Virus record (IMG/VR): IMGVR_UViG_3300009408_000079
Span: 1 to 27,641 of that record
From: a virus
Strand: one strand, 5' to 3'
Length of the DNA stretch: 27,641 bases
Shown: positions 8,370-27,641 of the stretch, piece after piece
Numbering within the stretch: the stretch's first letter is position 1
How the letters are laid out: every line of letters starts with the position of its first letter
Position numbers and translations under genes: made by a program
The notes under the pieces: generated by a model
What the model was told of the DNA's origin: nothing
What the model saw: the letters and a program-made list of their open reading frames with translations, nothing else
Database searches by the model: none

Positions 8370-10187
8370 TCAGCCCTGAGCGGGCGGGGTCTGTGGGGGT
8401 TGCTTAGCTGCCTGGGCTGCTGCCTGGGCGTCAGTGATTTCCTTGATCTTGCCCGTGACGGCGTCGAGGTACTGGTACAGCAAGTTGACATGTTGAGAGG
8501 GGGTCTCCTGCATGAGAGTCTCTGCCAGCTGTGCCACACCGTGGGAGATGGCGAACTGGAGGTTCGTGTACTCGTCGGGGGGTGTGTAGATGCCCTTGGA
8601 GAGCATCTGGTTGACACGGAAGCGCACCAGCTCCTCCGTGGCCGTGACCACGTTCAGCTCGTCCTTGAGGTCGGGGAAGTCCAGGAGGCGGAGGATGGAG
8701 CCGCGGTCCTTGATGACCCCGTCCTGTACCAGGCTGCGTACGGCCTGAATCTTGGCGGCGGGGTTCTTCGGGAGCGACGACACGGGGAAGATGTCGAAGA
8801 CGAAGTCCTTCTCTTCAATCTTGCAATCCGCCCACTTGAAGTCCTCCAAGGTCCGGGTCTGCTTGTTGGTCATCACAGAGGTAATCTCCACTGCGATGCC
8901 TCCAGCCTCCAGACGCTTGGCCTCTTCCACGATGAGAGTGCCAATGCGGAGGAACAGCTCCTCGTACTCCTGGCCCTTCAACACGAAGCGCCGGGTCTCG
9001 ATGTCATTGAACTCAGTGATGGCTCGACCACTTACCAGGCCCGCGGGCTTCTTGGACTGCGCGTTCATCTGCGAGGCGCCGGAGACGTCGTAGATGAGCG
9101 TGCCTAGCCGGTCCATGTGCGCGTACATCTCCGGAGGCAAGAGCGCCTGGGTGAGCTGCACAGGCGGCGCGGAGCCCACAGTTCGAGGAATCATCGAACC
9201 ATCGGGCTGGTTGGTGATGTCCTTGGCATCGATGCTGCCTGCCTCGTAGCTGATGCGAGAAACACCGTTGGCGTAGAAGGTTCGAGAAATCTTGGTGAGA
9301 ATCTCGTTGTACTCGCGGTCGATGGGACCAATCTCCTGGACCAGGGAGTCGCCCCAGAAGCCGCTGGTGGGCGCCGTCCAGTAGAACCAGAAGAAGGGCA
9401 AGAGCTTGGACGTCCACGTCTCTTTGCCAAGGATGGCTCCATCCACGGCCACGATGTGTGTACCCGTCTCGCCGGTCTCAGACGCCCGCCTCCACGACTC
9501 GATGAGCATGGTGTAGGAGACGTTCCGGTCGAGGGAGTAGGTCGTGAAGATTTCCGCCACATCATCACCGAAGCGAACCGTGGATGCCTCGATGGTGAGC
9601 TTGTGCTTGGGGTACTTCTTGACCAGCTGTGCCGTGGGGATGAACCGCACATAGTGCATCGACATGGGGTCGCCGTAGTAACCATCCTTCTCGTCCACCA
9701 GCACCTCCCAGGGGAAGACGCGATCAATGACGATGCGACCAATCTTGTCCGGGTCGGTATAGGAGCGGATGCGTCCAAGTCCCGTGCCTCCCAACATGGC
9801 GTCGCGGACGACCATGGACACGCTGTGGTGAGCCTTGCTGCGCTTGATGACGGCGGACGTGAAGCCCGTCATCTTCTTGCCTCGCTCCTGCATCTCCAAG
9901 TCGCCACCACGGGTCACGACCGAGGGCAGGGGCTTGGTGTGCGTGATGGTGGCCAGGAGGGAGTTGGTGATGTTCTTGACCAGGTTGGCGGGGTTCTTCG
10001 TCCCACCTCCTGAGTTCAGAATCTCCAACGCCCGCTCTCGGCCACGCTTGCCACGGGGCTTCTTGTGATAGGCACTGAGGTTCTTCAGGTACGTCTTGCG
10101 CCTGAAAGAGTCCTGCTCCATCAGATCTTTGATGTAGGACGCGAGTTGCGCACCGTCTGCTTCCCACCAGGGAGTGTCAATAGCCAT
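8370..10187 (-). CDS. Portal protein
   Basis: I chose ATG 10187 (GGAGG six bases upstream) over the longer frame to 10235, because the shorter form starts 11 bases before the terminase stop and gives a 605-residue product. The N-terminal helices contain QDSFRRKTYLKNLSAYHKK. Further on are IGRIVIDRVFPWEVLVDEKDG near residue 160, SGFWGDSLVQEIGPIDREYN near residue 280, and the long C-terminal helix with NPAAKIQAVRSLVQDGVIK. These are typical podovirus portal features (head-tail connector through which DNA is packaged). The protein ends in a Gln/Pro/Ala tail. It lies between large terminase and scaffold. Confidence 0.92.
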   Translation of the reverse strand: MAIDTPWWEADGAQLASYIKDLMEQDSFRRKTYLKNLSAYHKKPRGKRGRERALEILNSGGGTKNPANLVKNITNSLLATITHTKPLPSVVTRGGDLEMQERGKKMTGFTSAVIKRSKAHHSVSMVVRDAMLGGTGLGRIRSYTDPDKIGRIVIDRVFPWEVLVDEKDGYYGDPMSMHYVRFIPTAQLVKKYPKHKLTIEASTVRFGDDVAEIFTTYSLDRNVSYTMLIESWRRASETGETGTHIVAVDGAILGKETWTSKLLPFFWFYWTAPTSGFWGDSLVQEIGPIDREYNEILTKISRTFYANGVSRISYEAGSIDAKDITNQPDGSMIPRTVGSAPPVQLTQALLPPEMYAHMDRLGTLIYDVSGASQMNAQSKKPAGLVSGRAITEFNDIETRRFVLKGQEYEELFLRIGTLIVEEAKRLEAGGIAVEITSVMTNKQTRTLEDFKWADCKIEEKDFVFDIFPVSSLPKNPAAKIQAVRSLVQDGVIKDRGSILRLLDFPDLKDELNVVTATEELVRFRVNQMLSKGIYTPPDEYTNLQFAISHGVAQLAETLMQETPSQHVNLLYQYLDAVTGKIKEITDAQAAAQAAKQPPQTPPAQG

Positions 10188-11583
10188 AACCATCCTCCGT
10201 TTGAGCCCTTCTGGACTCAGCGATTTCATGTTCAATCATCTCATCCTCTTGCTGTTGGCGCCACTTGGCAGAACCAACCGCAGGAGGGGGCACCTCAGCA
10301 CGCCCCATCCAGGCCATGGCGTCCCTGTAAGCGTAGAGGAAGCCGTCCGCCGCGTGGTCGATGGACCCCTTCTGGACGTCGGTGCCCTCGTCATTCCACA
10401 TCAGCTCTTCCAGCTCCTCCAGGAGAATGTTGGCCCCGGGGGTGACGAAGAACACGTCTCCATCCTCCATGGCACCAATGAGCAGGCGCCTGTTCCCGAG
10501 CTTGTCCCGCTTCTCCGCGGCGAACACGGGCAGACGGTACCTCTTGCGGAAGTCCTTGACGTAGCCCACGCCCAACGCGCCTGCGTCCACAATGACTCTC
10601 GCTACCATGGGGAAGTTCACCATCAGCGCCTTGATGTGGCTGGCGATGGAGGATGGGGTCATGCCGGGCTTCTTGTCCGAGTGGATGACCCAGACCTTGT
10701 TGGGGACCGTCGTGTCCCAGACCATGACGATGAACGAGGTCGAGGGCTTCGCCTCGGACGCGCCAAGATCAACGGCGAGGATGCCCTGTGTGGTCATACG
10801 AGGCACGAAGCCGTCGATGATGCACTCGGGCTTGACCGGGTAGACAATGCCACCAGCGTTGTCAATCCACTTGCCGTACTTGAGCTGGTCCCTGGTTGTA
10901 CTATCCAAGGTATCAAAGCTCTTTTCGTACTCCTCCAGGTTCAGGTGGGGGTTGTCTCTCATGGTGGAGGGGATGAAGACGTGCCCCGCATACGGCTTGA
11001 CGATGAACCGCTTCTTGACCCATTTGTGGCCGTAGCCCCCAGGGTTGGTCGACGCCTTTGTCACCAGCTCGATGGGGTCGCCGTAGTTCTTCCTTCGGCG
11101 CGTCTTGAGGTAGGTGTACTGCGTCTTGGTGAACTGCGTTAGCTCGTCAAAGAACTCACCGTGGTACTCGGAGCCCTGGTGGCTGTACTTGTCCCTCTCG
11201 TCCTTCAGGTGGCTGAAGCGGATGGTGCCACCGTTGGGGAAGCTGTACTCGTTCTTGGAGGCAATCCACGTCACCTTCGGGTTGTTGGCCCACCACTCGT
11301 GGGCGAGCGTGAGGATACCACCTGCCTGATTGAGCTGGGGGAAGGTTCTACGAAAGACCACACCAGAATACCCGGGGAGGTGGACGTCCCTAGCCGCCGC
11401 CGCAAGGAGCGCGACCGTCTTTCCACCACCTGCGGCTCCGCCGTACAGGGTCTCGTCGTCGTTCGTCTCCACGAAGCTGCGCTGCTTCTCAGTGAGCTGC
11501 ACCGGGACGAACTCCGAGTACGAGGTGTCCATGACCTCGATGATCTGCTTGGCCTCCTCCATCAACGTCTCAAGATCATCCAT
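10177..11583 (-). CDS. terL: Terminase large subunit
   Basis: This is the ATPase-nuclease motor that packages and cuts DNA. With start ATG 11583 (GGAG seven bases upstream, overlapping the previous stop) it is 468 residues long. The Walker A GGAAGGGKT is at residues 48-56, with VVFRRTFPQLNQAGG following. The Walker B with catalytic Glu is FFDEL around 144-148. The C-terminal RNase H-like nuclease shows AVDLGAS (Asp 272), VIVDAGALG (Asp 333) and SIDHAADGFLYAYRD (Asp 409 or 413). All key residues are present and length is normal. It overlaps the portal start by 11 bases. Confidence 0.97.
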   Translation of the reverse strand: MDDLETLMEEAKQIIEVMDTSYSEFVPVQLTEKQRSFVETNDDETLYGGAAGGGKTVALLAAAARDVHLPGYSGVVFRRTFPQLNQAGGILTLAHEWWANNPKVTWIASKNEYSFPNGGTIRFSHLKDERDKYSHQGSEYHGEFFDELTQFTKTQYTYLKTRRRKNYGDPIELVTKASTNPGGYGHKWVKKRFIVKPYAGHVFIPSTMRDNPHLNLEEYEKSFDTLDSTTRDQLKYGKWIDNAGGIVYPVKPECIIDGFVPRMTTQGILAVDLGASEAKPSTSFIVMVWDTTVPNKVWVIHSDKKPGMTPSSIASHIKALMVNFPMVARVIVDAGALGVGYVKDFRKRYRLPVFAAEKRDKLGNRRLLIGAMEDGDVFFVTPGANILLEELEELMWNDEGTDVQKGSIDHAADGFLYAYRDAMAWMGRAEVPPPAVGSAKWRQQQEDEMIEHEIAESRRAQTEDGYGY

Positions 11584-12049
11584 TCGCACGCTCCAGGGCC
11601 TGTTCATAGATGAGCCGTTGCTGGAGGAAGTCGTAGTCGAAGCGCCAGTCCGTCCTCTCGGAGGTGTAATCCTTCTGCCACATCTTGGTACCAGAGCAGA
11701 GACACACCATGGGGAGATCGCCACGTGCATGGTCTACCAGGGCACGGGCGAAGCCCAGCTCCCGGAACGGCTTGGCGGTGAAGCCGAAGTAGATGGCCAG
11801 CCACCGCTCTTGCCAATCCTCCGTGGCCATCCACGCCAAGGGCACGTCGGGGCTCTTCGGGTGGACCACCTTCTCGATGTGGGTGCTTGGGAGTGAGAGG
11901 ATGCCCTTCATCGTCTCCCCGAGGACGTACCGGGAGAACACCCGCTCGCCGCTCAAGGGCGTCTTAGAGCGCCTCCCAGACTGCGTCCAGGTGCGGTAGA
12001 TGAACTCCAGATCGCTAGGCTCAGCCGGGAGAATGACGACCTCAGACAT
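11576..12049 (-). CDS. GNAT-like acyltransferase-fold protein between terminase genes
   Basis: The 157-residue product starts at ATG 12049, which overlaps the upstream stop and has GGAGG six bases before it. The opening VVILPAEPSDLEFIYRTWTQ resembles the first strand and helix of GNAT proteins. LAWMATEDWQERWLAIYFGF gives the central strands, and KPFRELGFARALVDHA resembles the acetyl-CoA-binding R-x-x-G-x-A loop and helix. No acceptor is known. GNAT-like small proteins do occur near terminase genes of podoviruses, but their role is unclear. The fold call is by eye and enzyme activity is not shown. Confidence 0.65.
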   Translation of the reverse strand: MSEVVILPAEPSDLEFIYRTWTQSGRRSKTPLSGERVFSRYVLGETMKGILSLPSTHIEKVVHPKSPDVPLAWMATEDWQERWLAIYFGFTAKPFRELGFARALVDHARGDLPMVCLCSGTKMWQKDYTSERTDWRFDYDFLQQRLIYEQALERANG

Positions 12050-12626
12050 CCACAACCTCCGTGGGGAGCACCTTCAGCTCCGCCACTACCTCCTTCGGAA
12101 GGGGGTGCATGGCGGCGTCCAGGGCACGCCTGACGCTCTCTACGCCCCCTGAGAGGTACAGCTGATACACGAGCTGTCCAACCAGCTGCATGGCCTTAGG
12201 AGCCGCCTCAGCGGCCACCACGGGGTTCTCCATGCCCTTCACCACCGTCTCGACCCTGTCCGTGGTCTCTCCCTGAAGAGCCAGGAGCGTCGTGGCGGCC
12301 TTCATGCGGTCGGTGCTTCCAATCCCCTCCTCGCCGCGCATGGCGGAACCAAGCCACCGGGCCACGTCGTCGCGAGAGGTGGGTTGGTTGCGCTCGATGA
12401 AGTCCAGGCAGTCCTTGAGGATGATGAAGTTGGAGGACCCCAGAAGCGCCTCTACAGCCGCCAAGGGCTGCTCCACGAAGTCAGCCAGGAGCGGGAGGCC
12501 GTCCTCGTCCTGGAACCGTGCATGTTGGAGGTAGGTGCTGATGATGTCCCGTTCCACCGGAGACATCAACGCCAGCATCCGAGAGACGAAGTCCCTCTTG
12601 GTGGCCAGTAGCAGTGTCATGTCCAT
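12042..12626 (-). CDS. Putative terminase small subunit, first gene of the late cluster
   Basis: ATG 12626 follows GGAGG by five bases and gives 194 residues. The same frame extends to a GTG at 12665 without a visible ribosome site. A second ATG lies at 12620. The product is almost all alpha-helical (DFVSRMLALMSPVERDII, RMKAATTLLALQGE, AMQLVGQLVYQLYLSGG). Its helical make-up and position at the head of the packaging cluster suit a DNA-recognising small terminase. I see no clear helix-turn-helix, so the call rests mainly on position. An unrelated early-late protein remains possible. Confidence 0.55.
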   Translation of the reverse strand: MDMTLLLATKRDFVSRMLALMSPVERDIISTYLQHARFQDEDGLPLLADFVEQPLAAVEALLGSSNFIILKDCLDFIERNQPTSRDDVARWLGSAMRGEEGIGSTDRMKAATTLLALQGETTDRVETVVKGMENPVVAAEAAPKAMQLVGQLVYQLYLSGGVESVRRALDAAMHPLPKEVVAELKVLPTEVVDV

Positions 12627-12810
12627 GGACTCCTCCAAGTCATCGTACAGGAGGAAGGCTACCACCCGCCGACGCCGCCTTCAACTTCACGCCGCCACCT
12701 GCAAATACAAACCAGGGTCGCCTCCTCGAAGCTACAGAAACTGGTGGGGTACAACACCAAGTTCAAAACGGCCCCAAGGACAGGGGTGACACGGCAGCAG
12801 GGGTTCCCTT

Positions 12811-12885
12811 TACTACCCCTATAAATTCCTAATACTAATACTATTCAATAAATACAAAATACTATTAGGGTATTAGAAATAATAC
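12811..12885. other. AT-rich island, possible DNA unwinding element or promoter region
   Basis: Roughly 75 bp of strongly AT-rich DNA stand out from the GC-rich surroundings and contain repeated ACTAATACTA-type words. No clean promoter pair is visible on either strand, though TTGAAT on the minus strand is 17 bp from a TTTATA. It directly abuts the repeat cluster on its right. Confidence 0.55.
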
Positions 12886-12902
12886 CCCTCTAAAGGAGAG
12901 GG
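12868..12902. other. Two overlapping stem-loops
   Basis: GGGTATTA (12868-12875) pairs perfectly with TAATACCC (12880-12887) around a GAAA loop. CCCTCT (12886-12891) pairs with AGAGGG (12897-12902). The two stems share two bases, so both cannot form fully at once. Neither is followed by a T-tract. Confidence 0.45.
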
Positions 12903-13080
12903 TGTCCACCCTGTCCATAGTATGTAACTACAGGAAATCTAGGCGTTTTCCATGGACACCTCCCCCCTGTCCACCCCTGTCCATTTGACGCCTTACCCCT
13001 GTCCGTTCAAGAAGTACATAAACTTCAGCAAGTTCTGGCGACCATGGCCCCCCTGTCCAACCGACCGACCGTGGACAGGG
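12903..13080. repeat. Cluster of CCCTGTCCA repeats (iteron-like)
   Basis: Direct copies of CCCTGTCCA lie at 12909-12917, 12965-12973, 12975-12983 and 13051-13059. A one-mismatch copy is at 12997-13005 and an inverted copy at 13072-13080. An eight-base inverted copy (GGACAGGG) lies outside at 12778-12785. The hexamer TGTCCA also occurs at 12903-12908 and inverted at 12953-12958. Start-to-start spacings of 56, 10, 22, 54 and 21 bp are near whole helical turns. By chance a given 9-mer would be expected well under once in the whole window. Confidence 0.8.
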
Positions 13081-13143
13081 TTCAAAAACTATTTGTGTGA
13101 ACAAGCCAACACAAAAAGTGCCACCCTGAGCCCCAAATAACCA

Positions 13144-13159
13144 GTCCCTAAACAGGGAC
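13144..13159. other. Short hairpin in the intergenic region
   Basis: GTCCCT and AGGGAC form a perfect 6-bp stem around a four-base AAAC loop. No T-tract follows on the plus strand. It lies 17 bp before the TTGACA element, so it could be an operator or chance. Confidence 0.35.
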
Positions 13160-13175
13160 AATCCGAGGGCTCCCC

Positions 13176-13203
13176 TTGACATGTCGACCCCTGGCCTTAC
13201 TCT
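13176..13203 (+). promoter_or_regulatory. Weak candidate promoter for the replication cluster
   Basis: A perfect -35 hexamer TTGACA (13176-13181) is followed after 16 bp by TACTCT, which matches the -10 consensus at only three of six positions. It faces the replication genes and lies just after the repeat cluster. The leader would be about 300 nt. The -10 is poor, so this is a suggestion only. Confidence 0.3.
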
Positions 13204-13253
13204 TGGGGTGGTGCTCCTGTGCAGGCGTCTCCTGGACGCAATAGTTAGGCGCT

Positions 13254-13280
13254 TGGCCGGATTCTCACTGAGTCCGGCCA
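13254..13280. other. Inverted repeat with 8-bp stem
   Basis: TGGCCGGA (13254-13261) and TCCGGCCA (13273-13280) pair perfectly around an 11-base loop. No T-run follows directly on either strand, so it is not a classical terminator. It could be a leader structure of a rightward transcript. Confidence 0.4.
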
Positions 13281-13337
13281 TTCGTCTATCTGGGCCAGGA
13301 AAAAACTTTCGGCTCCAACCACCGCCTCTTGTGGTTC

Positions 13338-13556
13338 CTACCCGTCCGACCCCCTACCCATGGTGGTGGTCACGACACCCTTCAAGAAAGACGTCCACTC
13401 GGACTTGTACCGAGTGCTGAACGGGCTTATTGTTCTCCTTGCGGTAACGCGCATCAGGATAATCACGACCGCGCAAGCGGCGAAGGAGCCCACGATGGAG
13501 CAGAGCACATGAAGTCGCGAGACGCGGTTGGCCACAAGATCGTACGCGTTGAGCAA
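13338..13556 (-). CDS. Doubtful small membrane protein on the opposite strand
   Basis: A 72-residue frame starts at TTG 13556, with alternative GTG starts at 13535 and 13508. It has one strong hydrophobic segment (VLCSIVGSFAACAVVIILM) followed by a basic stretch. By eye its third positions are GC-rich between 13340 and 13500, while the plus frame there has an AT-rich third position. This favours the minus strand. After its stop, an AACCAC/GTGGTT hairpin and a T6 run some ten bases later could end a transcript. Against it, no start has a ribosome site, and the longest form overlaps the plus-strand gene at 13509. Confidence 0.27.
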   Translation of the reverse strand: MLNAYDLVANRVSRLHVLCSIVGSFAACAVVIILMRVTARRTISPFSTRYKSEWTSFLKGVVTTTMGRGSDG

Positions 13557-13706
13557 GAGCGCCGACGCGTGTGCGAACAGTCCAACGAGGAGGCGTGGGC
13601 GCTCGTCGCCATCGTGCTCGACAACGGATCAAGGATCGAAGTGACGGCTCGCGACACCGACACAGGGCACCTCGTGGAGTCGCACGTTTACAAGGAGATC
13701 ACATGA
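13509..13706 (+). CDS. Small protein, 65 aa, first gene of replication cluster
   Basis: ATG 13509 has GGAG eight bases upstream. The frame is open further left but that part has non-coding third-position composition. The product starts MKSRDAVGHKIVRVEQERRR, has a charged helix, then beta-type AWALVAIVLDNGSRIEVTARD. No family is recognised. Its stop overlaps the primase start as ATGA, so the two are translationally coupled. The role is unknown. Being the first gene of the rightward unit suggests early expression. Confidence 0.6.
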   Translation: MKSRDAVGHKIVRVEQERRRVCEQSNEEAWALVAIVLDNGSRIEVTARDTDTGHLVESHVYKEIT

Positions 13707-14515
13707 CTACGAGACGTGATTCGAAGGGTGGCTGGAGTCCGACACCCATTGAGTTCTCCACATTCTCCAAGGCGGGTGACAACCGTCCAACCCGACGGCA
13801 GGCACCCAGCTGGGAGGCGCTCACGGAGCAGCTATCCCAGCCCCTGGTCACCACAAGCAAAGACGTGATGCTGCTGAGCCCGGCCATCTACGCGCCTGGG
13901 GCAACCAGGGCCAACGCCAACGTCCAGGCCCTGACCTTCCTCATGTTGGACCTTGATCACCGGACGCCCAAAGAAGTCGACGACCTCGTCGACCACCTGG
14001 AAGAGCAGGATTTCACCTACTTCGCTCACACCACCTTCAGCCACACCGCCACAGACCAATGCTGGCGGTTCCTCCTTCCCCTGAGCCGCCCCGTCACCCC
14101 TGCTGAGTGGCCTGGATTCTGGAAGACCTTCACAGAGCAACACGCTCCGACGTCGGACCGGGCCACCAAGGATCCAGCACGCTCCTACTACGTCCCCAGC
14201 TACCGGCCTGACCACCTGCACAACACCGAGCAGTACATGGGTCAGCCCATCCCCGTCGAAGACTACCTCGACCCCACCGAGCCCCTCGAGCCCACCAAGC
14301 CCCTAGATATCCCCCACACCACCACTCCCATCACCTTCACCCAAGACGACTTCCCCCTACAAGCTGATGTATCAGATGTTCCTGGCCGTGGCTCAACAGG
14401 CCGACCTACAAGCCATCCCACCGTGCCCGTTCCTCACCGACCACCCTGGTATCCAGAAGCTCAACCGCCTCGAACAGCCCAACCAGCAGTGGACAGACGC
14501 TCGCCTCCAGCGTGA
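13703..14515 (+). CDS. AEP-type DNA primase domain, N-terminal part of a split primase-helicase
   Basis: Start ATG 13703 has AAGGAGA seven bases upstream. The frame gives 270 residues, but only the first 218 look genuine. MLDLDH carries Asp 83 and Asp 85, the metal-binding pair of archaeo-eukaryotic-type primases. FAHTTFSHT, CWRFLLPLSRPVTPAEW and DPARSYYVPSY (from residue 157) follow the usual order of this phage primase group. From the run of five C's at 14353-14357 onward, third-position GC falls sharply and the sequence becomes Pro/Arg-rich shadow. The next frame becomes coding at that point. In related phages this domain is commonly fused to a VapE-type helicase, so this is probably the front half of one 737-residue protein. 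Confidence 0.8.
   Translation: MTTRRDSKGGWSPTPIEFSTFSKAGDNRPTRRQAPSWEALTEQLSQPLVTTSKDVMLLSPAIYAPGATRANANVQALTFLMLDLDHRTPKEVDDLVDHLEEQDFTYFAHTTFSHTATDQCWRFLLPLSRPVTPAEWPGFWKTFTEQHAPTSDRATKDPARSYYVPSYRPDHLHNTEQYMGQPIPVEDYLDPTEPLEPTKPLDIPHTTTPITFTQDDFPLQADVSDVPGRGSTGRPTSHPTVPVPHRPPWYPEAQPPRTAQPAVDRRSPPA
14353..14357 (+). other. Apparent +1 frameshift site at a run of five C's
   Basis: The primase frame reads TTC CCC CTA here and the helicase frame reads CCC TAC AAG. Skipping one C after CCC joins DDFP directly to YKLMYQMFLAV and produces a continuous 737-residue primase-helicase. Coding-style third positions change frame exactly here. It may be a programmed +1 shift at CCC-C, a real mutation splitting the gene, or a sequencing or assembly error in a homopolymer. 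Confidence 0.6.
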
Positions 14516-15917
14516 TTGGGACCGCTCATGGGAGTGGACCATCTCCTCCAAGCAGACGGCTCCTGTCCTCGAGGAACTCAAGAAGGCCATGCTGGAGGAG
14601 ATTACGCGCCAGCGAGCTGCCACCTGGGCTGGACGCCTCCAACGCACGGCCAAGGACGCCGTGAAGGCCAACGCCTTCAACGCCAAAATCTACGCCATGC
14701 ACCACCCCCTGCTCACCGATCGCTTCGCCCGGGACATCACCAACGACCGGCCCATGCTCCTCCCCCGCGTGGCCCCCGCCAAGTACACGCTCCGTGAGGA
14801 CCACCACGTCAGCCAGTTCCATGTGGACCTGTGCATCGCCACTGGTCTCTCCTTCACCGAGGAGGCCGCCCGCCAAGCGTCGGACTATCAGGCGAGCAAG
14901 AACCCTCGCAACGTGCTCTTGGAGCTGCTGGAGGCAGTCCCGCAGTGGAACAAGCAGGACAACATCCCCCACTTCGTCCGCACCTTCATCAAGGCCGACG
15001 CCGACGACACCGAGGTGGAGCTGATGAAGAAGTGGCTCATCGGCGCCGTCCGCCGTCTGAAGGTCCCTGGTTCCAAGAACGAGAACATGCTCATCCTCCA
15101 TGGGGACCAAGGCATTGGTAAGAACTGGCTCATCGATGTATTGTCCATGGGCGCTGTGAACCAAAACCCGCCACACCCATCCGACAAAGACTTCATCGCG
15201 CAGACCACCAATTCCTGGATTGTCATGTTCGATGAATTCACGAGCATGTACAACAAGGCCGACGTGGACGCCTTCAAGAGCTTCCTCTCCACCTCTGAGG
15301 ACGACAAGAGGCTCTCGTACCGCCACGACTCCAAGCGCATCCTCCGCCGCCAAGCGTATGTGGCCACTACCAACGAGGCGGCCTTCCTCAGGGACAACAC
15401 CGGAAACCGCCGCTTCTGGCCACTTCACATGACGGAGAACATCATCGAGCGCCTGGACGAGATGCGTGCGTGCGTACCTCAGGTGTGGGCTGAGGCCATT
15501 GCTCGAGAGGCTGCTGGGGAGGACAACTTCTTCCTCAAGGAGCAGACCCACCTAACAAACCTTGTACGCATGGAGGACCCGCTCAAGGACTCCATTGAGA
15601 ACATGCTCGAAGCGTCGAACGGTCGCCCATTTTCCTTCGCCGATGTACTTGAGTTCTTGCAGAAGACCAACCGGGATTCCTTCGTTATCTCCAGCATTCT
15701 CCGAGCCCTTGGTTGCCACAAGAAGAGGGGCTCCTTCCCTGGAAGTAAAACCAAGCACTCCATCTACTGGAAGGGCGACGAAGAGCCTGACAAGAACAGC
15801 CGCTTCACTCTTCAGGACATGCGCAGCGGTCATGTACAAGGCACCGCAGCCGTCGCTGCTGGGCTCGCTGCGGTAATCCCCATCAATACCCACACCACCA
15901 AGGAACAGACCCCATGA
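14367..15917 (+). CDS. VapE-type superfamily 3-like replicative helicase
   Basis: As an independent gene this would be 516 residues from ATG 14367, but no ribosome site precedes it. Coding signal in this frame begins a few codons earlier, at about 14358. It has HGDQGIGKN (Walker A; Lys 252, with Asn 253 where Ser or Thr is usual). The Walker B is VMFDE with Asp 289 and Glu 290. YVATTNE follows as sensor 1, then RDNTGNRRFWPL with the arginine pair typical of virulence-associated E proteins. It should unwind DNA at the fork as a ring, next to its primase. The stop overlaps the next start as ATGA. Confidence 0.88.
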   Translation: MYQMFLAVAQQADLQAIPPCPFLTDHPGIQKLNRLEQPNQQWTDARLQRDWDRSWEWTISSKQTAPVLEELKKAMLEEITRQRAATWAGRLQRTAKDAVKANAFNAKIYAMHHPLLTDRFARDITNDRPMLLPRVAPAKYTLREDHHVSQFHVDLCIATGLSFTEEAARQASDYQASKNPRNVLLELLEAVPQWNKQDNIPHFVRTFIKADADDTEVELMKKWLIGAVRRLKVPGSKNENMLILHGDQGIGKNWLIDVLSMGAVNQNPPHPSDKDFIAQTTNSWIVMFDEFTSMYNKADVDAFKSFLSTSEDDKRLSYRHDSKRILRRQAYVATTNEAAFLRDNTGNRRFWPLHMTENIIERLDEMRACVPQVWAEAIAREAAGEDNFFLKEQTHLTNLVRMEDPLKDSIENMLEASNGRPFSFADVLEFLQKTNRDSFVISSILRALGCHKKRGSFPGSKTKHSIYWKGDEEPDKNSRFTLQDMRSGHVQGTAAVAAGLAAVIPINTHTTKEQTP

Positions 15918-20179: not shown

Positions 20180-20190
20180 AGGAGAGACCA

Positions 20191-20394
20191 ATGGATACTA
20201 AGCAACAAATTCTGGAATACGTCACAGACCACCCCGCCATCTCTGCCCGGGAAGTCGCGAAGGCCATGGGCGTCACCAACTCCATGGCGTCCCGCTACCT
20301 CAAGGAGCTGCGTGGTGAGGGCGTCCTCTACTCCAAGCGCAAGCGCGGTCTGTTGGGTCGCCCCACGTCCCTCTGGTCGGTGGTTCCGGCGTGA
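20191..20394 (+). CDS. Small winged helix-turn-helix DNA-binding protein
   Basis: The ATG 20191 has AAGGAGAG seven bases upstream, so the frame to 20122 is not needed. The 67-residue product is one domain: helix KQQILEYVTDHP, then SAREVAKAMGVTNSMASRYL (helix-turn-helix with recognition helix), then GVLYSKRKRGLLGRPTSLW as the wing. This matches the MarR/ArsR-like wHTH form often seen in small phage regulators. It is coupled to the DNA polymerase gene by a GTGA overlap and preceded by a structured leader. It may control its own transcript or replication genes, which is inference. Confidence 0.8.
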   Translation: MDTKQQILEYVTDHPAISAREVAKAMGVTNSMASRYLKELRGEGVLYSKRKRGLLGRPTSLWSVVPA

Positions 20395-22298
20395 ACTACT
20401 ACCTGGACAGCGAGACGTACCTCATTGAGCCTGGCATCCTCATCCCACAGATGGTGTGCCTTCAGGACGAAGAGGGCATCCACCTCCGGCGGGACTCCCA
20501 TGACATCGTGGAGGCGCACCTGGATGCGGGGGACACGTTCGTTGCGCACTCCGCCGCCTTCGACGCCGCGGTCCTGATGCGTGCATTCCCAGACCTCGCG
20601 GAGCGCATCTACAAAGCCCCCTGGGAGTGTACGAAGGTCCGTGAGAAGCTCATCTATATCGCCAAGAAACACCCCTTCAAGGGGTCGTACTCGTTGGCCA
20701 TGTGTTTGAAGCGCCACGGGATTGATGGTGGGTACAACGTCGATGCGGATGGCCAGAAGGACGAATACTGGAGGCTCCACTACTCGGAGCTGGACGGTGT
20801 CCCGGTCGCCGACTGGCCAGAAGCCGCTGTGCGGTACGCCATGCTCGATGTTGAGAACGTCAAGGATTTATACGAGTGGCAGGAGGCCAACGTCCCGTCC
20901 GCGGTGTGGGTGGACCTCGAGGCCCAGACTCGCGCGGACCTTGACCTTCACCTTCTGACGGCGTGGGGTGTCCACACTGACCCCGTTGCCGTGGAGCGGT
21001 TCATCACCAAGGTTACCGCCGAGAAGGCAGACCTGGAGAAGTCGCTCCTGGCATCGGGGCTGATCACGCACAAGGGCAAGAAGCGCCAGAAGCTCGCCAA
21101 GGAACGAGCCACCAAGGCGTTCGTCGACATGGGCCTGAGCTTGGACAAGATTCCCCTCACGCCCAAGGGACGTCAGCTCCTGGAGATGACGCCAAACCTC
21201 CCAGCTCACGAGCTGCTCCCCGACTACACGTCCGTAGACAAGGACGCCTGCCTGCTGAGTGGTGACGAGCTCCTGGTGCAGTACGCGCGGTACGGTTCCG
21301 TCAACACCCTCCTGAAGCGAGGGACACGGCTGCGTGCTGGCGTCCACCGCCCCCTCCAGCCCCGCTACAATGTGTTGGTGGAGTCGGGTCGCACCAGCTG
21401 CTCTCAAGGGGTGGATGGCTCCTCCACCCTTGGCTTCCAGATTCAGAACGTCAACCGGGAGCCTGGTCTCCGAGAGTGCTTCGTGCCAAGGCAGGGCAAG
21501 GTCTTCTTTGCCGCCGACTGGTCAGGCGCCGAGCTACACACCCTGGCTGAGGCGTGCAACGTGCTGGTGGGGTACTCCTCCATGGGGGATAAGCTCAACC
21601 GGGGCATCGACCTCCACATGGACTTCGGCGCCCAGCTGATGGGAGTCACCTACGAGGAGGCACAGCGCCTTCGCAAGGCAGGGGACAAGCACGCCAAGGA
21701 CATGCGCCAGATGGGAAAAGCGGCCATGTTTGGCTTCCCTGGTGGTCTTGGGGCCTTCACCTTCGTCATCTACGCCCACGACTCCTACGGCGTGGTGCTC
21801 ACCATTGAAGAGGCCGAGAGGCTGAAGGCCAAGTGGTTGGTGGCGTTCCCCGAGATGTCTGACTACTTCAAGATCATCAACCGCATCTGTGGGTCTGACC
21901 GCCCGGTGGAGCAGCTGTACTCCAAGCGCCTCCGTGGTGGGGCTAGCTACTGTGCAACCGCCAACACCTTCTTCCAGGGCCTGGCCAGCGACATGATGAA
22001 GGACGCCCTTCATCGCATCGTCTCTGAGATGTACTTCCCAGGGGGGCCGTCGTACATGCGCAAGGCCCGCCTCTGGGGAGAGATCCACGATGAGTTCATC
22101 GGGGAGGCCCCCCTGTCCATCGCTCCCGACGTGGCGGAGCGCGTGGCCTTCCACATGGCGGAGGCTGGCAAGAAGTGGTGCCCCAGCTCCCCACCCACCG
22201 CTGAGCCGCTCCTGATGAGCCGGTGGAGCAAGTCTGCGGAGACCGTTCGTGATGACCACGGGCGACTCCAAGTATTTCAAGTTGAAGAGGTATTGTAA
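20391..22298 (+). CDS. Family A DNA polymerase with 3'-5' exonuclease domain
   Basis: The 635-residue protein starts at GTG 20391, overlapping the stop of the wHTH gene. The N-terminal DnaQ-like exonuclease has YLDSE (Asp 6, Glu 8), AHSAAFD (Asp 58) and YAMLD (Tyr 149, Asp 153). All proofreading residues are therefore present. The polymerase domain has FFAADWSGAEL (motif A, Asp 376), RQMGKAAMFGF (motif B: Arg 439, Lys 443, Phe 447) and GEIHDEF (motif C, Asp 567). Phe at 447 instead of the Tyr of T7 polymerase predicts stronger discrimination against dideoxynucleotides. This is the replicative polymerase, shorter than T7 gp5 (about 700). The stop TAA overlaps the next ATG by one base. Confidence 0.96.
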   Translation: MNYYLDSETYLIEPGILIPQMVCLQDEEGIHLRRDSHDIVEAHLDAGDTFVAHSAAFDAAVLMRAFPDLAERIYKAPWECTKVREKLIYIAKKHPFKGSYSLAMCLKRHGIDGGYNVDADGQKDEYWRLHYSELDGVPVADWPEAAVRYAMLDVENVKDLYEWQEANVPSAVWVDLEAQTRADLDLHLLTAWGVHTDPVAVERFITKVTAEKADLEKSLLASGLITHKGKKRQKLAKERATKAFVDMGLSLDKIPLTPKGRQLLEMTPNLPAHELLPDYTSVDKDACLLSGDELLVQYARYGSVNTLLKRGTRLRAGVHRPLQPRYNVLVESGRTSCSQGVDGSSTLGFQIQNVNREPGLRECFVPRQGKVFFAADWSGAELHTLAEACNVLVGYSSMGDKLNRGIDLHMDFGAQLMGVTYEEAQRLRKAGDKHAKDMRQMGKAAMFGFPGGLGAFTFVIYAHDSYGVVLTIEEAERLKAKWLVAFPEMSDYFKIINRICGSDRPVEQLYSKRLRGGASYCATANTFFQGLASDMMKDALHRIVSEMYFPGGPSYMRKARLWGEIHDEFIGEAPLSIAPDVAERVAFHMAEAGKKWCPSSPPTAEPLLMSRWSKSAETVRDDHGRLQVFQVEEVL

Positions 22299-24181: not shown

Positions 24182-24852
24182 ACGACAAGTACGAAGGGCC
24201 ATGGGATGTCATCCAGCAGTACCCCACCTACATCGTGACGAAGAGCTTCGAGTCGAAGGATGAGTCCTTGAGCTTCGCTGCCTGGAAAGCGCGCCGCACG
24301 GGGGAGTGCGTGTGGGTGCTGTCTCCATATGAGCTGCTGGAAATCACGTCCTTGTTCGAATGCGTGAAGCTACCCCCTGTTCCTGGTGAAGACAGAGAGG
24401 TCGCGGCGTTCCTGGGAATCCAGCTGCCTCCACGACCAGATGAGGATGCGGTCGAAGTCGCTGAATGCGTGAAGCTGCCCAAGGAAGTGACCGTTAGAAC
24501 GTGGCCCGAATCCAGCCAGGGCTGGGATGTTCTTGGTCCAGCCAAGGGACTTCCATTCATCGACACCCTTCAGGGCCTCATGGACGCCGACAGTGTAGAG
24601 CTGGGGAACGCCGAAACCGACGCCCCCGAACTCGTCCCACGGGAAGGTTCTGTGGAAGCGCGGAATGCCGTAGCTGCTGATGCCGAGGTCCATGCTTTCA
24701 TCCATGGCGTCAAGGGTGGCAACCACAAGGCGACGCGCCGCACCTGGACGATTCTTGAAGAGAACCTCAGGGTCGAGGATGAGCCGCTTCGCGTGCGCTG
24801 CGTGCGCTACGTCTACAAGCGTCTTGGCGAACTCCTCTTCCCCTCCGGGTGA
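24178..24852 (+). CDS. Last rightward gene; N-terminus credible, C-terminal two thirds antisense to the lysin gene
   Basis: ATG 24178 is coupled to the previous stop. The first 64 codons (to about 24370) have GC-rich third positions and read like a small phage protein (YEGPWDVIQQYPTYIV, ESLSFAAWKARRTGE). After 24370 the frame runs antisense through the glycosidase gene for 160 more codons. There its first positions lie opposite the glycosidase third positions, the phase in which shadow frames stay open in GC-rich DNA, and third-position GC drops. A stop was probably lost, giving a long non-homologous tail of 224 residues in total, or translation really ends late. Function unknown. Confidence 0.5.
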   Translation: MNDKYEGPWDVIQQYPTYIVTKSFESKDESLSFAAWKARRTGECVWVLSPYELLEITSLFECVKLPPVPGEDREVAAFLGIQLPPRPDEDAVEVAECVKLPKEVTVRTWPESSQGWDVLGPAKGLPFIDTLQGLMDADSVELGNAETDAPELVPREGSVEARNAVAADAEVHAFIHGVKGGNHKATRRTWTILEENLRVEDEPLRVRCVRYVYKRLGELLFPSG

Positions 24853-25065
24853 AGGGTACCCCCAGACGTCGGTCGAGATGCCGCCTATCTGCTCCATCGT
24901 GTAGGACCAGTAGGCGGCTTCTTCCGTGCTGAACCCCGTACCCGTGGGCTGCCACAGGGCCTTGATGACCGTCCAGGTGACACCAGCGTCTCGCATCTGC
25001 TCCGCCGCCCTGGCTACCGCTTGACAGTCGCGTCCTGTACGGACGAAGACGCCTACCTTGGTCAC
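24370..25065 (-). CDS. TIM-barrel glycosidase-like endolysin candidate
   Basis: GTG 25065 overlaps the previous stop (GTGA). The 231-residue product reads as an alpha/beta barrel: strands KVGVFVRT, WTVIKAL, STDVWGY, KRLILDPEVLF, LGISSYG, GFGVPQLYT, NIPALAGFG and DRILIWSWRQ alternate with helices. LDPE (Asp 98, Glu 100) at the end of a central strand is where barrel glycosidases such as GH25 lysozymes keep catalytic acids. It is the last gene of a lysis-like cassette, so cell-wall degradation is likely but inferred. No signal peptide is seen, consistent with holin-dependent release. Its 3' end overlaps the opposing gene by 483 bp. Confidence 0.65.
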   Translation of the reverse strand: MTKVGVFVRTGRDCQAVARAAEQMRDAGVTWTVIKALWQPTGTGFSTEEAAYWSYTMEQIGGISTDVWGYPSPGGEEEFAKTLVDVAHAAHAKRLILDPEVLFKNRPGAARRLVVATLDAMDESMDLGISSYGIPRFHRTFPWDEFGGVGFGVPQLYTVGVHEALKGVDEWKSLGWTKNIPALAGFGPRSNGHFLGQLHAFSDFDRILIWSWRQLDSQERRDLSVFTRNRG

Positions 25066-25259
25066 TCCTCGGGCTCGGGGAACTTCTCGTCGATGGCCTC
25101 GTCGATGGCCTTGCGGGTGGCCTCCACCTTGGCGTGTTCCTGCCGAAACAGCTCGATCATCGACATGTGCTCCTGTCGATTCTGCAAGAGCTTGACCAGA
25201 CTAGGCACCACCTCGGGGAGGGCCTCCACAACCCGGCGGACGACTTCACTTTTGCTCAT
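25062..25259 (-). CDS. Small helical protein in lysis cassette, 65 aa
   Basis: ATG 25259 has GGAG eight bases upstream and lies 14 bases inside the previous gene. The longer frame to 25454 is a shadow of the spanin-like gene. The product is all helical: VRRVVEALPEVVPSLVKLLQ, then a charged coiled coil from HMSMIELFRQEH to EAIDEKFPEPEE. It has no membrane segment or signal. It might be an accessory lysis factor, but no family is recognised. Confidence 0.6.
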   Translation of the reverse strand: MSKSEVVRRVVEALPEVVPSLVKLLQNRQEHMSMIELFRQEHAKVEATRKAIDEAIDEKFPEPEE

Positions 25260-25551
25260 GGACTTGCTCCAGTAGAAGGCCAGCGGCTTCCAGGCCGCGG
25301 TATGCGACGTCACATCGCTGGCGTACCTCCGCCACCCGGGCGGTGGCCTCCTCGCGGGTGGTGGCTCCTTCCACGGCGGCCTCCTGCTTCTCGCGACACA
25401 CGACGCGGGTGGCGTCGTAGATTGGCGCCACCATGGCTGCATTGCTAGCACCACACGCCGCCGGGATGATGATGGTGGCCACCAGCGCGAGCACGGCCAC
25501 GATCACCGAGAGCAGCAGCCACGCTCGCTCGCCGTCGAGGCGGTTGGTCAC
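25246..25551 (-). CDS. Spanin-like membrane-anchored protein, 101 aa
   Basis: GTG 25551 overlaps the holin-like stop (GTGA). A short charged start (TNRLDGERA) is followed by a hydrophobic segment WLLLSVIVAVLALVATIII and then PAACGAS, which could be a weak lipobox or just the membrane end. The rest is a charged coiled coil (EKQEAAVEGATTREEATARV). This layout fits an i-spanin (Rz-type) or a lipoprotein spanin next to a holin. No separate overlapping o-spanin frame was found. Role inferred from topology and position. Confidence 0.55.
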   Translation of the reverse strand: MTNRLDGERAWLLLSVIVAVLALVATIIIPAACGASNAAMVAPIYDATRVVCREKQEAAVEGATTREEATARVAEVRQRCDVAYRGLEAAGLLLEQVHEQK

Positions 25552-25817
25552 GACTCACCTGCCATGTACTTGTCCGCCGCAGCGCGAGCGGCCATGTTGA
25601 GTCGCGCCGTCGACTTGGCCCGCAAAGCGTCGACGTGTGGCGACGGCTGCTCGGCCTCGGGTGCGCGCCGCACGGCCTGGGGGAGCGCGATGCCCACCGC
25701 AGCGCCTAGCAGGCCCACGGCGGCCTCGCCGTAGCCGAGCGCGTAGAGCCCGACGCCGGCGCCAAGCAGGAGCAGCAGTGCAATCAGCGCCAGCCAATGG
25801 ATATCAAGTTGTCTCAT
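25548..25817 (-). CDS. Holin-like protein, two membrane segments
   Basis: ATG 25817 has GGAGGAG five to six bases upstream, one of the best ribosome sites in the window. The 89-residue product has two hydrophobic segments: WLALIALLLLLGAGVGLYAL (8-27) and AAVGLLGAAVGIALPQAV (32-49). A polar, mildly basic C-terminus of 40 residues follows. Size and topology fit class II-type holins that time the release of the endolysin. The neighbours are a membrane/coiled-coil protein, a spanin-like protein and a glycosidase. Holins share little sequence, so this is a topology and context call. Confidence 0.65.
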   Translation of the reverse strand: MRQLDIHWLALIALLLLLGAGVGLYALGYGEAAVGLLGAAVGIALPQAVRRAPEAEQPSPHVDALRAKSTARLNMAARAAADKYMAGES

Positions 25818-25818
25818 G

Positions 25819-26208
25819 TCATCTCCTCCGGCGCCGTGTCACTACGGCCCGTAGTTCTCTCACATCCTGCCGCGTGCCCTCGAGCTCACGCTGCACCGCC
25901 TGGAGCTGCGCGCTCACGCGGGCGAGGCTCGCGGTCACGTCAGACGCGCGCCGGCTCTGCGTCGTCTTCGCCGTCTCCAGCGCCACCACGCGCCGCGTCG
26001 TCGACGCGAGCTGCGCATCTGTGGTCGCCTGCCAGCGTGCTCCCATGAGCAGCGACGAGCCCGCCGTGATCGCTGCCGTAAGCAGAAGGCCCACGAGCAT
26101 CTTGCGGAGCGAGCTACCCACCTTGCGGTCGAGCGCGTCGAGTTCGTCGGCGACGCTGTCGTGAGTGGGTCGGTGGTTGGCGTCCACGAGGGGGTGCTGC
26201 GTCTTCAT
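25819..26208 (-). CDS. Membrane protein with C-terminal coiled coil, 129 aa
   Basis: I chose ATG 26208 (ATGA overlap with the previous gene) over the frame to 26349. Residues 1-36 are polar, with a DELDALDRKVGSSLRK helix. Residues 37-56 are one membrane segment (MLVGLLLTAAITAGSSLLMG). Residues 60-124 form a long charged helix likely to be coiled coil (ARVSAQLQAVQRELEG), ending in five arginines. It lies directly before the holin-like gene and may be a lysis accessory, alternative holin or i-spanin-like protein. No family recognised. Confidence 0.6.
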   Translation of the reverse strand: MKTQHPLVDANHRPTHDSVADELDALDRKVGSSLRKMLVGLLLTAAITAGSSLLMGARWQATTDAQLASTTRRVVALETAKTTQSRRASDVTASLARVSAQLQAVQRELEGTRQDVRELRAVVTRRRRR

Positions 26209-26558
26209 CGGGTGCGCTCCGTGGTTTTGGGCGTGGTGACCACCTTGGCCGTCGACTCGTCGCGTGCCCACGTCGTGAGATCGTGCTCGCGCAGCATTGA
26301 CGCCTCGGCCGTGTCCGCTCGCTCGCTCTCGGTCGACTCGACGGCCCACGTCTTGCCCGTGGGGCTGACGTGTATCTCGGGCACGGGCTCGCGCACGATG
26401 TCGGCAGGGTCAACGTGCCTCCCGGACCCAACCTCGGTCAACGTGCCGTCATCTAGGTCAGCGCGGGAGTAGTGTCGCGGGAGGGCGTAGCGCGCGACGA
26501 CTTCGTCACGGTGCGCTTCGGCTGCGAGGCGCGAGCGGAATGTGCGGGTGATGGTCAC
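26205..26558 (-). CDS. Unknown protein, 117 aa
   Basis: GTG 26558 overlaps the lectin-like gene's stop. The frame upstream to 26846 is a shadow of that gene. The product starts TITRTFRSRLAAEAHRDEV, has YALPRHYSRADLDDGTLTE, then IHVSPTGKTWAVESTESE and a Thr/Lys-rich tail. No motif is recognised. It is tightly packed between a fibre-type gene and the lysis cassette and may be a minor structural protein or chaperone. Confidence 0.55.
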   Translation of the reverse strand: MTITRTFRSRLAAEAHRDEVVARYALPRHYSRADLDDGTLTEVGSGRHVDPADIVREPVPEIHVSPTGKTWAVESTESERADTAEASMLREHDLTTWARDESTAKVVTTPKTTERTR

Positions 26559-27307
26559 AGGGACACCCCGAACTCGGACAAGATCCACGCTTCCATGCGT
26601 GCTCGCTGGACCGGTGAATGCCATTCGGGGTAATGGGCGAACAGCGCGGAAGACCCGGGCATTGCGTTGCCATTGTGCCCGTATACATGTACCGGAATGA
26701 GCCCGGTATTCATGGTCGGCGCTGCTCGGGCAACATCGACGCCTCCACTGACGTGACAATGCAATGTGCCAGCCGGGTCCCATCCCCAGACCATCAATCG
26801 CGGAACGTCGTCTTTGACAATCACTCCAGATGATGCCACCTGCCACGCAGTGTCAGCCGCATTACGCGCTAGTACCTGCACCTCCCCCGTGGACAATATT
26901 CGCAATATCCATACGTTTTCGGTGGACCATTTAGTCGCAATGTATCGCACGCCCGTAAATGGGGAGCATGAGAAGACGATGTATTGCGTACAGCCTCCGC
27001 TGGCTTCCACCAGCGACGTAGCGGTGGCAGTGCTCAGGAAGTCCGCCGCGCCATCGGAGCTGTCACCGTCGATGGTTCCCTTGCCCTTGAATCCAGCATT
27101 GCTCGTGCTGTACGAGGGTTTCCGGTTGTCAACCGATTGAGCGGCGTCCAGCGCATTCGGTGATTGATCGGCCCATGCCACCACCCCGAACCCGTCGGTG
27201 GTCACGCCCTTTGAGCCGTGCAGGAAGATGTCCGGCCCATACGTCAGCGGGCTGAACGGCGCCCCGCCAGCACGGCCACGGCTTCGTCCCTGGCGGCGAA
27301 TCATCAC
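26555..27307 (-). CDS. LamG/concanavalin-like domain protein, putative tail fibre or surface protein
   Basis: GTG 27307 (ATG next) overlaps the previous stop as GTGA. The 250-residue product has a basic start (RRQGRSRGRAGG) and then a jelly-roll-type domain: GFGVVAWADQSPNALDAAQ, KPSYSTSNAGFKGKGTIDGD and FLSTATATSLVEASGG, with YIVFSC and HCHVSGGVDVARAA further on. The W-x-D-x-S-x-N and short beta pattern is common in LamG-like lectin domains of phage tail proteins. It probably binds glycans at the host surface. The C-terminal YPEWHSPVQRARMEAW helix is also typical of this group. The domain call is by eye. Confidence 0.65.
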   Translation of the reverse strand: MMIRRQGRSRGRAGGAPFSPLTYGPDIFLHGSKGVTTDGFGVVAWADQSPNALDAAQSVDNRKPSYSTSNAGFKGKGTIDGDSSDGAADFLSTATATSLVEASGGCTQYIVFSCSPFTGVRYIATKWSTENVWILRILSTGEVQVLARNAADTAWQVASSGVIVKDDVPRLMVWGWDPAGTLHCHVSGGVDVARAAPTMNTGLIPVHVYGHNGNAMPGSSALFAHYPEWHSPVQRARMEAWILSEFGVSL

Positions 27308-27641
27308 GACGGAGTCACTACAAGCGAACCGTTTGCCCCACTGACTGCGCGGTACCGGAGGAAGCGAGCACCGTCCGGGACGACTTCGTGCTTACCGGTG
27401 CCCCCTTGGTCGATGCGGCGAGGCACGCCCACGACGGGCACGACGCTGGTGGCGAAAGTCATCACCGTCGTGGTGTCTTCCATGAAGCAGTAGTACACGT
27501 CCACATCCTCACAGTAGATGTGGATGTACCTGTTGGGGTAGGCGCTCAAGTCGAGCGTGGCCTCTGCCACACCCACGGACCCTCTGACCTGAAGGCCAAC
27601 GGTGGCCCCCTGGATGGATGCTGCGGCAACTTGGGTTGTGA
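27304..27641 (-). CDS. Structural-type protein, 5' end outside window
   Basis: The minus frame stays open to the right edge, adding credible sequence (QVAAASIQGATVGLQVRGS) ahead of the GTG at 27576. The gene therefore starts beyond 27641 and its first part is missing. The visible 112 residues are beta-rich (NRYIHIYCEDVDVYYCF, VMTFATSVVPVVGV) and end RYRAVSGANGSLVVTPS. The stop overlaps the next GTG. The sequence resembles small beta domains of tail or fibre-associated proteins, but no family is named. Its location before a lectin-like gene supports a virion role. Confidence 0.65.
   Translation of the reverse strand, partial: TTQVAAASIQGATVGLQVRGSVGVAEATLDLSAYPNRYIHIYCEDVDVYYCFMEDTTTVMTFATSVVPVVGVPRRIDQGGTGKHEVVPDGARFLRYRAVSGANGSLVVTPS

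Follow-up and report, generated by a model that had tools for sequence, protein, structure and literature searches.

A probable iteron replication origin and its candidate VapE/PriRep1-type initiator helicase in a divergent environmental phage

Introduction

In phage P4 the winged helix with which the alpha protein binds its origin is C-terminal. The presence of an origin-binding winged helix in the P4 alpha primase-helicase is given by the title of Yeo et al. 2002, as cited in PMC4234260. In the origins of PICIs iterons flank an AT-rich region (PMC6092414), and in SCCmec Cch2 the isolated C-terminal domain of the initiator helicase binds short direct repeats (PMC7581432).

Here we describe a contig from IMG/VR, a virus record of an uncultured phage, which was analysed over its whole 27,641 nt (the window). 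We conclude that the segment 12778–13080 is probably an iteron replication origin opened by the phage's own VapE/PriRep1-type helicase. A divergent environmental phage, with only ∼30% protein identity to its nearest relatives, is thereby given a concrete origin and initiator to test.

Results

A repeat cluster beside an AT-rich island

The 27.6-kb contig has nine copies of CCCTGTCC, of which seven are packed into the 303 bp from 12778 to 13080. Plus-strand iterons of the full 9-mer CCCTGTCCA are at 12909–12917, 12965–12973, 12975–12983 (10 bp past the 12965 copy) and 13051–13059, and an inverted one is at 13072–13080 (minus strand). A one-mismatch iteron, CCCTGTCCG, lies at 12997–13005 (plus strand), an inverted copy of the 8-mer CCCTGTCC at 12778–12785 (minus strand), and extra TGTCCA cores at 12903–12908 (plus strand, GGTGTCCACC) and 12953–12958 (inverted, minus strand). 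An earlier note on this DNA had described such a set (9-mer copies, an inverted 8-mer and two extra TGTCCA hexamers within about 300 bp), and its coordinates are confirmed.

Counting the motif across the whole contig, a check proposed in that note, bears the cluster out: the largest number of CCCTGTCC copies in any 310 bp was three across 1000 dinucleotide-preserving shuffles, versus the seven observed, and the five full 9-mers in 180 bp compare with at most two in shuffles. One-mismatch matches over the whole window are not unusual in number (16, versus 13 expected), and the significance lies in the clustering of the copies, not in their total. When the whole contig was scanned, a single exact CCCTGTCCA was found outside the cluster, at 22111, in keeping with the scattered single matches reported before, and no second repeat cluster is present elsewhere in the contig, which may be incomplete. 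The same-strand iterons are spaced by 56, 10, 22 and 54 bp, or 5.33, 0.95, 2.10 and 5.14 helical turns; the description of these spacings as near whole turns thus holds only in part.

The iterons adjoin an AT-rich island (∼12812–12890, 73% AT), with one inverted copy to its left (12778) and all others to its right. No other stretch of the contig is as rich in AT as this candidate DNA-unwinding element, its best 79 bp reaching 76% AT versus at most 67% elsewhere, and the AT-rich stretch noted previously is thereby upheld. Within it are two AT-rich direct repeats of ∼20 bp, spaced 27 bp apart, and a hairpin, GGGTATTA/TAATACCC, lies at its edge (12867–12888, minus strand). To the right of the iterons are GC-rich hairpins at 13243–13291 and 13144–13159 (GGCCGGA/TCCGGCC and GTCCCT/AGGGAC); a search of Rfam returned no matches, including for these two.

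Neighbouring genes and a promoter-like match

Island and iterons lie in a 0.84-kb non-coding gap (12666–13508), in which no open reading frame has a codon pattern like that of the genes on either side. It separates a leftward late unit from a rightward replication operon, so the site does sit between divergent units, as had been claimed. The first gene of the late unit is at 12042–12665 (minus strand; open reading frame and codon pattern), and the leftward genes include terminase (large subunit at ∼10177–11682, by PHROG match), portal, major head protein and structural proteins. Rightward, a possible first gene of 65 amino acids (13509–13706, plus strand), of uncertain coding status, is followed by an AEP-type primase-like gene (13703–14515, plus strand; phrog_9765 DNA primase, E 1.5e-17), a VapE-type SF3 helicase, a PD-(D/E)XK nuclease, a SNF2/DEAD-type helicase, a small wHTH protein, a family-A DNA polymerase (PolA, 20391–22298) and a RuvC-like resolvase.

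The primase and helicase frames overlap by ∼150 bp (14350–14515). The codon pattern switches at ∼14350–14370, which suggests that the coding part of the primase-like gene ends near 14365, and a TGATG (14365–14369) sits in the third frame after a run of five C residues. The overlap points to one of three things: an indel in the assembly, a frameshift, or a genuine splitting of a protein that relatives such as L052 have in fused form. At the right end (24850–27641) minus-strand genes appear again, converging with the replication operon as in phage ctsHD2, and one structural-protein PHROG match lies there (26558–27307); the contig may represent an incomplete genome or one that is circularly permuted.

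GC skew changes sign near 13 kb. Each of the two arms has an excess of C on its coding strand, so this switch follows gene direction and cannot map the origin, and we therefore rejected GC skew, which the earlier note had proposed for locating the replication start, as an origin mark.

A sigma-70-like promoter, TGGACA-18-TATTAT, points toward the late unit (12879–12908, minus strand; consensus match only), and its −35 element is the TGTCCA copy at 12903. This overlap and the position between divergent units would suit a multi-site operator, at which a phage DNA-binding protein switches the late and early units and the AT island is promoter DNA. The binder could then be another early protein or the small wHTH protein (20188–20394, plus strand; HTH_24, 2.8e-08; MarR/Ren-like PHROGs), whose resemblance to MarR/HTH_24 proteins also speaks for this reading. 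However, seven copies that are irregularly spaced and differ in orientation look like an origin, and the single promoter match compares with 0.4 expected by chance. The earlier note had left iteron origin and operator side by side; the origin is well supported by the layout, by the survey of VapE loci and by the distant relative L375 (see below), and we consider an operator alone unlikely.

A VapE/PriRep1-type helicase as candidate initiator

The earlier note also stated that no Rep-type protein was recognised and that a binding protein would be new. The first statement was wrong: the gene at 14367–15917 (plus strand) encodes an SF3 helicase of the VapE/PriRep1 class whose C-terminus is modelled as a winged helix, and a protein binding the repeats therefore need not be new. 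This proposed initiator matches PF05272 (E 1.4e-49) and, among solved structures, 7pds, with E 1.3e-25 by single sequence and 1.1e-112 when a profile built from 34 homologues was used; 7pds is annotated ‘Similar to D. nodosus vapE’ and its title is that of PriRep1 with dsDNA. An AlphaFold (AF2) model reached a pLDDT of 82.8 with the 34-row alignment versus 34 with a single sequence, and a Foldseek search with the helicase model placed PriRep1 at the top (4e-22), followed by the helicase of phage NrS-1 and D5-type helicases.

Residues 405–469 of the AF2 model (15579–15773, plus strand) form three helices (405–417, 424–431 and 435–447) and a beta hairpin (450–455 and 464–469), mostly at high confidence (block pLDDT ∼80–94). 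This is the pattern of a winged helix, and we propose the domain as the iteron reader. Sequence homology to the P4 origin-binding domain was unsupported, hhalign of the winged helix to the C-terminus of P4 alpha finding no sequence similarity (probability 0.13%), and a profile search of the PDB with the domain alone gave no match. The small wHTH protein, named previously as one candidate binder, does have MarR/HTH_24/Ren-like similarity, albeit as a weaker candidate than the helicase.

In the mechanism that we propose, the CCCTGTCC(A) repeats would serve as iterons to which the helicase (14367–15917) binds through its C-terminal winged helix. It would then assemble as hexamers, melt the adjoining AT island and load itself on the strands, and the primase (13703 onward) would make primers for the family-A DNA polymerase (20391–22298). 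We infer binding, melting and loading, as well as the direction of replication. Because the site lies between divergent units, binding of the initiator may also dampen the leftward promoter at 12879–12908. The annotated P4 ori likewise lies between divergent units (alpha and sid), and the promoter-like match overlaps an iteron; a combined origin and operator, at which the helicase initiates and its binding also represses the promoter in the gap, nevertheless seems very unlikely, the promoter match being near the chance level.

Relatives of the phage

Close relatives were not found, either by megablast of the window against phage records or by scans with individual proteins, namely the helicase, the terminase and the portal. 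Alignment of PolA recovered four loci with a near-full-length PolA at 30–34% identity. The nearest phages by replication genes are ctsHD2 (MW202816) and L375, which have the PDDEXK–SNF2–PolA order of the contig, although protein identity is only ∼27–34% and the L375 helicase is of the DUF5906 type. L375 has an arrangement like that of the contig, its iterons lying 5′ of the replication operon: TGTCCCA on both strands flanks an AT-rich core, 5′ of the DUF5906 (D5-type) helicase, and on the far side of the array are small genes, mostly on the opposite strand. In ctsHD2 the late genes diverge from the replicative helicase across an AT-rich gap, but unlike the contig it shows weak repeats only and no clear short-iteron cluster. 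No iteron array was found in the PolA relatives L372 and L373, a point against the origin reading. Related PolA genes are also present in contigs of the myxobacterial metagenome-assembled genomes L379 and L380 (Labilithrix), the former with a SNF2-type gene as well, and neither locus has a TGTCCA-type cluster; these PolA genes hint, weakly, that the hosts of the phage group may include Myxococcota.

Repeat arrays in loci encoding VapE helicases

In the best 80 VapE matches, picked by protein similarity alone and neither random nor de-duplicated, CTGTCC and GTCCCA were, of all 2080 hexamers, the two with dense clusters in the largest number of loci (19 each). Forty-three loci, not de-duplicated, were inspected singly for the top-ranked 7-mer cluster on two strands or with spacing not a multiple of three. 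By our own count the densest repeat lies at the 3′ end of the helicase gene in 25 of the 43 (−16 to +36 bp in 17 loci, ∼+378 to +405 bp in eight). Members of the VapE family thus usually have an iteron array next to the helicase, often with a TGT core. The iteron words include TGTCCCA, TGTTACA (L302, L312, L342, L356), TTGTCAC (L299, L331, L336), TGTTGCC (L363), AATGTCC and TGTCCTA. TGTCCA itself is not clustered in this protein-selected set; the common feature here is the iteron array, often with a TGT core, and not the exact TGTCCA word. Similar C-terminal winged helices tend to share an iteron word and differing ones to differ, and a recognition code is possible.

A general rule is suggested, in which the origin of a VapE-helicase phage tends to be a short array of TGT-core repeats beside the helicase gene, so that origins could be read from sequence. 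Like clusters at helicase 3′ ends and inside initiator genes, where a divergent promoter is not expected, speak against the operator. Unlike most VapE loci, the contig has its array 5′ of the primase gene, with no iteron-like cluster seen at the helicase 3′ end (15917). This 5′ placement counts against the origin reading, as do the loci with the most similar helicases (L292, L294, L295, L310 and L315, 30–34% identity), which lack an iteron cluster at the 3′ end.

TGTCCA-type arrays in other phages

Scanning for three TGTCCACC in close array gave at least 120 matches, many of which are coding repeats rich in Gly. Many matches in the first DNA scan were due to chance or coding sequence, with GGTGGACA/GGACAGGG often encoding Gly-rich repeats, and later clusters were therefore filtered for spacing mostly not a multiple of three. 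The filtered clusters from pooled scans represent 46 unrelated phage groups, and in 35 groups the motif is present on both strands. The TGTCCA(CC) cluster adjoins or sits in a replication gene, identified by database match or homology, in at least 19 of the 46; these recurrence counts are descriptive and not calibrated against scrambled words. PF05272 was found in only two of 50 records carrying the tandem motif; TGTCCA arrays are thus not specific to VapE, which led to other types of initiator. The neighbours encode VapE, DUF5906, Toprim-AAA_25, PriCT2-AAA_25, Prim-Pol/DUF3987, DNA polymerase/primase, O-like or DnaD-like initiators, DnaB and, once, Rep_ORF2/G2P. In several groups the first repeat begins 7–27 bp from a stop codon, and a single array in L244 contains both TGTTCACC and TGTCCACC.

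Arrays of TGTCCACC inside or at the edge of O-like/DnaD-like genes occur at L184:6279–6902, L192:930–1892, L243:5066–5836, L259:2966–3613 and L281:9517–10443, and resemble lambda, whose origin is within gene O. Short tandem arrays with TGTCCA are present at the contig termini of L183, L193 and L242 and may be assembly breakpoints or terminal repeats.

A minority of the clusters, as exceptions, lie beside genes for integrase-like (L189/L254), transposase (L188/L287) or ParB-like (L186) proteins, as might be expected if such arrays bound a protein outside replication, for example as recombinase arm sites or as a site related to partition or packaging. For the contig we regard this as most improbable: the cluster adjoins the replication operon, and no integrase, transposase or ParB family match was found among the contig proteins scanned.

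TGTCCA(CC) and its close variants (TGTTCACC, TGTCCCA) could be a widespread origin motif for phages with unrelated initiators (VapE/DUF5906 SF3, Toprim-AAA_25, PriCT2-AAA_25, Prim-Pol-DUF3987 and O/DnaD-like), a proposal that as a whole we put forward tentatively and with some doubt. If true, the motif by itself could suffice to predict origins, and the winged helices that read them would have a single DNA word in common or have arrived at it by convergence.

Discussion

The probable origin described here can be set beside those of SaPIs and PICIs, with their Rep or Pri-Rep self-loading helicases (PMC6092414, PMC7581432; PDB 7pds, 7ola), in a comparison of layout, helicase family and neighbouring genes. 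Like them, the contig has short iterons that lie beside, or surround, a region rich in AT; its helicase belongs to their family (7pds, profile E 1e-112), with a C-terminal domain, here a modelled winged helix, proposed to bind DNA, and a primase gene is adjacent. In PICIs rep is followed directly, on its 3′ side, by the origin, whereas in the contig the probable origin is 5′ of both the primase and helicase genes, and unlike PICIs the contig is that of a tailed phage with its own PolA. SCCmec Cch2 similarly has a primase-polymerase in the helicase operon, although its repeat differs and its origin is 3′ of the helicase gene (PMC7581432).

The P4 ori has multiple 8-bp repeats in both orientations, an AT-rich region and divergent early and late units (alpha and sid), and the contig is alike in these respects. 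Its annotated type-1 repeats are TGTTCACC, a core one base apart from TGTCCACC; the contig has TGTCCA(nn). P4 alpha has a Toprim-type primase whereas that of the contig is AEP-like, and P4 has a second cis site (crr) whereas the contig has no second cluster. With the recurrence of TGTCCA(CC) and this one-base difference from the P4 repeat, a phage winged-helix origin-recognition code becomes directly testable.

We do not class the site as a PICI- or P4-type origin proper, because it differs in the 3′ placement, the exact P4 repeat and the second site. The probable origin of the contig joins a known kind, that of SaPI/PICI- and P4-like origins, placed differently; what is unusual is its position 5′ of the helicase and the recurrence of one motif beside unrelated initiators.
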